Source: Actinomycetes bacterium (GTDB lineage Bacteria > Actinomycetota > Actinomycetes > S36-B12). Taken from it: a DNA stretch of 64,000 nt. Location: assembly GCA_024639145.1 (NCBI GenBank), contig JAHEIZ010000003.1, forward strand, positions 62,001 through 126,000, given 5' to 3'. Under the pieces are notes generated by a model. That model was not told the origin of the DNA. It worked only from the letters and a program-made list of their open reading frames with translations, and did not search any database. Position numbers and translations under genes: made by a program. Positions 6,010 through 8,020 of the stretch are shown here, piece by piece. How positions within the stretch are numbered: position 1 is the first letter of the stretch; every line of letters starts with the position of its first letter.

Positions 6010-6091
6010 TCTCATTCCTGCGGGGATGAAGCACTCGCACCACCTGCACGACACGAAATACCCCATCCGCATTGATCCCGGAAGAGGAATC

Positions 6092-6871
6092 ATGAGCAAC
6101 AGCAAGTGCAGCCGCCTCGAGGGCCGCGTAGCCGTCGTCACCGGTGGTGCCAGCGGCATCGGCCTCGCGTCGGTTCGTCGCTTCGCCGACGAGGGCGCGC
6201 ATGTCGTCATCGGCGATCTCGATCCCGTGTCGGGCGAGGCCGCGGCAGCCGAGGTCAACGGCACCTTCATTCGCACTGACGTCACGAATGCCGACGACGT
6301 CGCCGCGATGTTCAAGAAGGCCAAGGACACCTATGGCAGCGTCGACATCGCGTTCAACAACGCCGGCATCTCGCCGCCCGACGATGACTCGATTCTCGAG
6401 ACCGGGATCGATGCGTGGCGTCGAGTTCAGGAGGTGAACCTCACCAGCGTGTACCTGTGCTGCAAGGAGGTCATCCCGATCATGCTCGAGCAGGGCAAGG
6501 GCTCCATCATCAACACGGCGTCCTTCGTCGCCACCATGGCGGCGGCCACGAGCCAGATCAGCTACACCGCCTCCAAGGGTGGAGTGCTGGCCATGAGCCG
6601 CGAGCTCGGCGTGCAGTTCGCCCGCAGCGGCGTGCGCGTCAATGCACTCTCGCCTGGCCCGGTGAACACCCCGCTGCTCATCGAATTGTTCGCGAAGGAT
6701 CCCGAGCGCGCCGCTCGTCGACTCGTGCACATCCCCATGGGTCGCTTCGGCGAGGCCGACGAGCTCGCAGCAGCAGTCGCCTTCCTGGCCAGCGATGACT
6801 CCTCGTTCATCACCGCGTCGAACTTCCTGGTCGATGGCGGCATCTCGGGCGCATACGTCACCCCGCTGTAG
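6092..6871 (+). CDS. SDR-family oxidoreductase
   Basis: Rossmann TGGASGIG, NNAG, YTASKGG catalytic motif; probable start 6092. Confidence 0.92.
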   Translation: MSNSKCSRLEGRVAVVTGGASGIGLASVRRFADEGAHVVIGDLDPVSGEAAAAEVNGTFIRTDVTNADDVAAMFKKAKDTYGSVDIAFNNAGISPPDDDSILETGIDAWRRVQEVNLTSVYLCCKEVIPIMLEQGKGSIINTASFVATMAAATSQISYTASKGGVLAMSRELGVQFARSGVRVNALSPGPVNTPLLIELFAKDPERAARRLVHIPMGRFGEADELAAAVAFLASDDSSFITASNFLVDGGISGAYVTPL

Positions 6872-6883
6872 ATCGACCACGCT

Positions 6884-6947
6884 CGCGCAATCGCCGTCGA
6901 GGGAGAGGATCCGCATGTCGATCCTCCTCTTCGACGGCGATTGCGCG
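6884..6947. promoter_or_regulatory. Long imperfect inverted repeat / hairpin enclosing the start codon of the next CDS
   Basis: Left arm 6884-6911 CGCGCAATCGCCGTCGAGGGAGAGGATC; right arm 6920-6947 GATCCTCCTCTTCGACGGCGATTGCGCG; 25 of 28 positions complementary; 8-nt loop CGCATGTC contains the ATG. Confidence 0.9.
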
Positions 6948-7277
6948 TTCTGCACCCGTTCAGCCGGTTTCATCACCGCGCGCATCAAGCCGAGCACTGT
7001 GGTTCACGCCTGGCAGACCCTCGATCTTGATGAGCTCGGGCTCACTCCTGAGCAGTGCTCAACTGCCGTGCAGTGGGTAGGCGATTCCGGCGAAATTCGC
7101 TCAGGGGCCGCCGCGATTACCGCAATGCTTCGTGAGGCAGGTACCGGTTGGGCCGAGCTTGGTGCATTCGGAGAACTACCCGGAATCCGAACCCTGGCTG
7201 CCGGCAGCTATCGAGTGATTGCCTCGAATAGGCACCGATTGCCCGGGGGAACTCCCGCGTGCGAGATGCCCGACTAG
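6915..7277 (+). CDS. DUF393 / DCC-family thiol-disulfide oxidoreductase-like protein
   Basis: N-terminal MSILLFDGDCAFC signature. Confidence 0.85.
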   Translation: MSILLFDGDCAFCTRSAGFITARIKPSTVVHAWQTLDLDELGLTPEQCSTAVQWVGDSGEIRSGAAAITAMLREAGTGWAELGAFGELPGIRTLAAGSYRVIASNRHRLPGGTPACEMPD

Positions 7278-8020
7278 TGCGCTGTGCGGTAAGCCGTTGC
7301 CGCATCGAGGAAATTGCGGATCAGGCCGACATCGCGCACGCGTCGATCGGGATGCTCCGGATGCCACTGCACGCCGATCACGTATGAGCCGCGAGGGTCC
7401 TCGCACACCTCGATCGTGCCGTCAGGTGCCACGCCGGTGATCTGAAGATCTCCCGGATCCTTGACTGCCTGGTGATGCGAGGAGTTGACGGTGGCCTCGG
7501 TGCCGCCCATCGCCTTGGCGACAAGGGAACCCTCGATGAACTCGGCCTCATGGTCGTTGAACTGACCCGGCTTCACTCGATGGGTGACGTCGGAGATATC
7601 GGGCATGTTCTGATGAAGTGAGCCACCGTGGGCGACGGCCATGATCTGCAGGCCTCGGCAGATGCCGAACACGGGCATGTCGCGCTCGCGCGCGCCGCGG
7701 TACAACGCAATCTCGGAGGTGTCTCGCGATACTCGAGGAGCATCTGTGGTCTCATGCGGCTTCTCGCCGTAGAGCGACGGATCGACGTCGGCACCGCCGA
7801 CGATGACGAGGCCATCGAGACGATCGAGTACCGAGACGTCCGGATCAGTATCAGGAGGCAGGAGAACGACGCGTGCGCCCGACTCCTGGAAGAGATCGAG
7901 GTACCAGTACGGAAGCGTGGATGCCGTGACATCCCAGGCACCCCACTTTGCGGGCTCGAGGTAGGTGCTGACGCCGATAACTGGACGCGACACGTGCTCT
8001 CCTTGGTAATCGTTTCTCAA
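7274..8020 (-). CDS. Gamma-glutamyl-amine hydrolase, class I glutamine amidotransferase-like (PuuD-like)
   Basis: Motifs VIVGGADVDPSLYG, GICRGLQIMAVAHGG, GVQWHPE. Confidence 0.9.
   Translation of the reverse strand: MRNDYQGEHVSRPVIGVSTYLEPAKWGAWDVTASTLPYWYLDLFQESGARVVLLPPDTDPDVSVLDRLDGLVIVGGADVDPSLYGEKPHETTDAPRVSRDTSEIALYRGARERDMPVFGICRGLQIMAVAHGGSLHQNMPDISDVTHRVKPGQFNDHEAEFIEGSLVAKAMGGTEATVNSSHHQAVKDPGDLQITGVAPDGTIEVCEDPRGSYVIGVQWHPEHPDRRVRDVGLIRNFLDAATAYRTAH

Follow-up and report, generated by a model that had tools for sequence, protein, structure and literature searches.

RNA thermometers of the ROSE and fourU types sequester the Shine-Dalgarno sequence with a complementary stretch, and their structures are weak and melt in the physiological range. 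The stem described here, which encloses the start codon of a DCC1-like gene (DCC), also covers a Shine-Dalgarno sequence but is not melted by 60 C in silico. Ribosome-binding-site-sequestering hairpins are also found between cistrons, where structure over a downstream start would silence the gene unless it is opened. Coupled examples are phage f1 gene VII-IX, MS2 coat-lysis and E. coli rpmI-rplT (reviewed in PMC12548453). The DCC hairpin resembles these systems in having structure over the downstream start. Two things set it apart from them: the whole stem follows the upstream stop codon, so that a ribosome on the upstream gene is not expected to unfold it, and the stem is of unusual length and built from an inverted copy of codons belonging to DCC itself.

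A helix of similar length (32 bp) and almost perfect pairing in the 5' leader of S. aureus cspA hampers ribosome binding; trimming of this helix by RNase III activates translation (PMC3386247). Unlike the cspA helix, the DCC hairpin carries the start codon in its loop and uses coding sequence as one arm. Template-switch (quasipalindrome) mutations predict a near-perfect reverse-complement copy beside its source, as is found at DCC, although the cases studied are in RNA genes and reporter genes (PMC8794818, PMC7202029) and an armless ancestral state is not available for DCC. The DCC hairpin belongs with the known start hairpins that sequester the ribosome-binding site; its length and self-copied build are unusual. 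In literature searches on start-codon hairpins, none of the titles or abstracts listed described the DCC case.

A hairpin around the DCC start codon

The window is a stretch of 64,000 nt (G000:C87:62001-126000) from an actinobacterial draft genome of 2.52 Mb in 90 contigs. Coordinates of the features are collected in Table 1. A glutamine-synthetase-like gene, an aldehyde dehydrogenase gene, the short-chain dehydrogenase (SDR) gene and DCC follow each other in the same direction and meet the convergent PuuD-like gene, which by synteny is the neighbour also in a congener without DCC. DCC thus closes an operon-like run of genes, and we infer that the run is transcribed as an operon. Its product scored 57.6 bits against PF04134, above the curated cut-off of 27.8, and is a DCC1-like thiol-disulfide oxidoreductase. 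The spacer from the SDR stop to the DCC start is 43 nt long, and 28 nt of it are the left arm.

Table 1. Positions of the genes and hairpin elements (window numbering unless a locus is named)
Feature	Position	Strand	Remarks
SDR-family dehydrogenase gene, upstream of DCC	6092..6871	+	Stop codon 12 nt ahead of the stem
Left arm, in the SDR-DCC spacer	6884..6911	+	With Shine-Dalgarno-like GGGAGAGG (6901-6908); near-complement of DCC codons 3-11
Loop, 8 nt, CGCATGTC	6912..6919	+	DCC start codon ATG at 6915-6917
Right arm	6920..6947	+	DCC codons 2 (last base) to 11, ILLFDGDCA
DCC1-like gene (PF04134)	6915..7277	+	120 aa; DGDCAFC motif; Pfam E = 3.6e-15
PuuD-like peptidase C26 gene, convergent	7274..8020	-	4-nt overlap with the DCC stop codon
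pyrH start hairpin	L143:4358-4416 (G000:C54:124358-124416)		Start L143:4384; Shine-Dalgarno AGGAGGG in left arm, ATG in 23-nt loop
MFS transporter gene hairpin	L199:892-933 (G000:C25)		Starts 906/912; 14-bp perfect, CGGGCGAGGAAGGG/CCCTTCCTCGCCCG
Hairpin of PBP-like, probably lipoprotein gene	L248:15567-15618 (G000:C7)		Starts 15577/15585; 19-bp

A sequence-only reading of this DNA had described the two arms as complementary at 25 of 28 positions, and a repeat search recovered the same arms, 89% complementary and 8 nt apart. The sequence bears out its placing of the ATG within the loop and of a purine-rich Shine-Dalgarno candidate within the left arm. The right arm does encode the conserved N-terminus it had named, which is that of PF04134. 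The left arm, which it had taken for an inverted copy of the gene's own start, is indeed a near-perfect reverse complement adjoining codons 3-11. The sense RNA is better paired than the count of 25 suggests: the three non-Watson-Crick positions are two G-U and one A.C, and 27 of the 28 positions pair. Given the base composition, at least 25 matches in 28 would arise by chance with a probability near 7e-12 per placement; for loops of 3-60 nt the expectation is about 0.001 stems of this kind across the entire 2.5 Mb genome. Within 657 kb of its own genome the hairpin is the top-scoring short-loop inverted repeat. A search for a GC-rich stem followed by a T run gave no terminator-like site at the stem, nor was a sigma-70 promoter-like site found there. 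The hairpin matched no known RNA family in Rfam at the gathering score.

Three other readings of the start were rejected. An N-terminally extended DCC frame from 6795 has no in-frame upstream start codon in the sister species (described below). An antisense frame of 307 codons that would begin in the loop (minus strand, from 6916) has no ATG there in the sister species, which carries GACATTCG in place of GACATGCG; the antisense start is not kept. For a leaderless start within the left arm, inspection of the sequence found no TANNNT-like -10 at the right spacing.

Folding of the region 6860-6970 gave a minimum free energy of -59.7 kcal/mol (z = -6.0), and none of 200 shuffled sequences was as stable. 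The DCC start region (-38 to +40), at -52.4 kcal/mol, lies below all 574 gene starts with which it was compared; these starts were roughly called (mean -23.5, s.d. 6.4, lowest -46.8). Except for the A of the A.C mismatch, the bases of the Shine-Dalgarno region were paired at every temperature folded, and the paired ones remained more than 85% paired at 60 C. Holding positions -18 to +15 open is predicted to cost 28.8 kcal/mol. The paired Shine-Dalgarno region and this opening cost of about 29 kcal/mol support the earlier suggestion that the ribosome-binding site would be sequestered.

Conservation of the stem and origin of the left arm

The sister species (G002) is represented by CANFQC010000003.1, a metagenome-assembled genome of separate origin. 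It shares the gene order and the hairpin, and its DCC protein is 81% identical. Between the two DCC genes dS is about 0.85 and dN/dS about 0.14, and the protein is, as judged from the sequences, under purifying selection. The left arm shows no substitution and one inserted base, which is bulged, and the loop shows one substitution. Of the two substitutions in the right arm, one falls on the sole A.C mismatch and the other on the terminal pair. That pair is lost in the sister stem, whose core has no substitution besides the one at the A.C mismatch. Over the other 331 columns of the gene there are 71 substitutions. Within the stem, 1 of 10 codons differs at its third position, compared with 48 of 109 codons elsewhere (p = 0.03). 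No compensatory double change was found in the stem between the two species, which offer only two sequences.

About 31 nt ahead of the SDR start (window 6060-6091) are also unchanged in the sister species, and no hairpin is present there; farther up, the SDR upstream spacer has several changes and gaps. Because this stretch is equally unchanged with no hairpin, conservation of the left arm may reflect other constraints, and by itself the sequence conservation does not prove selection on pairing. The hairpin is shared at a dS of about 0.85 and is therefore not recent; the comparison marks it as an old feature that has probably been kept.

When the junction was compared in relatives, as the sequence-only reading had proposed, the hairpin was present in the sister species and lacking in the other DCC homologues. 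Among 110 DCC loci, only the source locus and the sister locus (represented twice, L002 and L031) have such a stem, and these have the lowest start-region energies of the set. Beyond these two, the closest homologues share at most 56% identity and are without an arm of this kind. In a third congener (G001) the SDR and PuuD-like genes are present, DCC and the arm are missing, and there is no comparable stem behind SDR. In the place of DCC this congener carries genes which we take to be DUF4260-like and TetR-like (L129:3499-4525, G001:C99), and the SDR/PuuD-like interval of this congener appears as a swap site for small gene modules. No close relative with DCC and without the arm was found among the genomes compared; the third congener is without both. 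A DCC homologue in another genus (G030:C74) has a different inverted repeat, perfect over 15 bp (L022:1466-1507). The right arm of that repeat lies over the GTG start and its loop holds a -10-like TTAGGCT, so the gene is probably leaderless. Two relatives within that genus did not show a repeat of this type.

We infer from the arrangement of the arms that the left arm most likely arose by template-switch (fold-back) inverted copying of the first DCC codons. Template switching has been reported to build stems in one event (PMC8794818). The copying could have been seeded by a short natural complementarity between a GGAGG-type Shine-Dalgarno sequence and CTC CTC Leu codons. The imperfect positions are the same in both species, which argues against continuing correction of one arm by the other. 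The earlier suggestion of a recent templated inversion can be kept in part: the event predates the split at dS of about 0.85 and so was not recent, and a templated inversion is plausible as the older origin.

A possible translational brake and its alternatives

In the most likely reading, to which we give an even chance, the hairpin acts in cis as a brake on the translation of DCC, the final gene of the SDR operon. In mRNA reading through from SDR, the DCC start would fold into the 27-pair stem, which would bury the Shine-Dalgarno sequence and expose only the ATG in its loop. Basal translation of DCC would then be very low. Initiation might occur before the right arm is transcribed, or after a helper opens the stem, or on a transcript that lacks the left arm. 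Judged by the reach of a ribosome on its mRNA, ribosomes terminating at the SDR stop, 12 nt before the stem, should arrive at its foot and not open it; by these coordinates, the upstream ribosomes are not placed to enter the stem, as translational coupling by unfolding would have them do. If translation is nearly abolished at equilibrium while the protein is under purifying selection, some route of opening must exist. This raises the question of how a purifying-selected gene is translated when its start is locked in so strong a stem. Repression in vivo and selection on pairing are both presumed. If the reading is true, a single fold-back copying at a gene start can instantly create a strong translational control element.

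The same stem could be a tolerated relic, an inverted copy made by template switch that is harmless and has no regulatory role, either because DCC is needed only at a low level or because it is made from another transcript. The left arm does read as an inverted copy of the first DCC codons, one-event creation of a stem by template switch is documented (PMC8794818), the protein would constrain the right arm regardless, and an unchanged upstream stretch with no hairpin is found at the SDR start as well. Against this, the core pairs are all intact despite a dS of 0.85, the stem codons show fewer synonymous changes than the rest of the gene, and similar start hairpins recur, and are kept, at other genes; we consider a relic rather unlikely. 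A site for RNase III or a barrier in the mRNA, by which the duplex is cut or 3'-to-5' decay is blocked, is likewise a rather unlikely account. Its role would be to mature or stabilise the upstream SDR mRNA and uncouple the DCC cistron, with any effect on the DCC start a by-product. The 27-pair stem exceeds the duplex of about 20 bp that RNase III can use, the almost perfect 32-bp helix of the S. aureus cspA leader is a precedent (PMC3386247), and the stem stands directly after the SDR stop codon. However, a cut within the Shine-Dalgarno sequence and first DCC codons would be expected to destroy the gene start rather than mature it, and no such stem follows SDR in the congener that lacks DCC.

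The arms also form an inverted repeat in DNA, which could be a palindromic operator or cruciform, and in G030 a DCC gene has its separate 15-bp repeat around the -10-like TTAGGCT. The DCC arms, however, far exceed the length of ordinary operators, a sigma-70 promoter-like site was not found here, and two of the three departures from complementarity pair in sense RNA only, so an element acting at the DNA level is very improbable. The thermosensor-like control put forward in the sequence-only reading would have the sequestered Shine-Dalgarno sequence freed on warming; the predicted structure stays closed from 5 to 60 C with no melting, and by this modelling an RNA thermometer is most improbable. 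Fold-back chimeras can yield such structures in assembly or amplification, and this is a draft assembly of 90 contigs. The possibility of an artefact, which the same reading had left standing, becomes negligible with the same hairpin, carrying substitutions of its own, in the separately assembled CANFQC010000003.1.

Start-codon hairpins at other genes

When 1.85 Mb of the same genome were scanned for stems placed around a start codon with a Shine-Dalgarno sequence in the left arm (score at least 14), five hits were obtained (four genes, one probably a false start), where 0.5 were expected from shuffled sequences. DCC is not among the five, having been missed by the crude gene caller, and counts additionally. 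Two candidate hairpins were set aside. The one at a CorA gene (L250:2484) likely belongs to the end of the gene upstream, and CorA itself probably starts farther down; that at L259:15832 likely marks a false internal start 18 codons into an open reading frame.

The product of the gene that we presume to be pyrH, so named for its position after a tsf-like gene, is UMP-kinase-like and matches PF00696. The right arm of its hairpin corresponds to codons 6-14. The two species have identical stems and differ in the loop, and the hairpin also occurs in several further family members and is absent in others (L217-L246). Its pairs partly covary: for example, G-C is replaced by C-G in column -82 and A-U by G-C in column -70; the family stems were chosen as the best stems, which biases toward pairing. 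Pairs were counted per right-arm column; MAFFT misaligned the left arms. It had no match in Rfam, and a literature search for a tsf-pyrH start hairpin found no paper that combined all of these terms.

The MFS hairpin has two possible ATG starts in its loop, and its stem is kept in the sister species with one G-C to G-U change near the end and an insertion just outside. All three congeners keep the stem at the PBP-like gene, and in G001 most of the loop differs. These conserved hairpins at the pyrH, MFS and lipoprotein genes raise the likelihood that the DCC hairpin is functional. On the sequence comparisons, long start hairpins may recur in this lineage, and if the brake reading is true they would offer a set of testable cases within one genus. 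The broader proposal, that the lineage uses recurrent self-copied start-codon hairpins at DCC, pyrH, MFS and lipoprotein genes as strong cis-acting translational switches in operons, is one we regard as doubtful. Each hairpin would then have arisen by inverted self-copying of the first codons and would be opened by some factor. Elsewhere in the genome, a perfect inverted repeat of 20 bp with a 12-nt loop, GATTTCTCCCTATCGGAGAC, lies at L156:1466-1517 (G000:C88).
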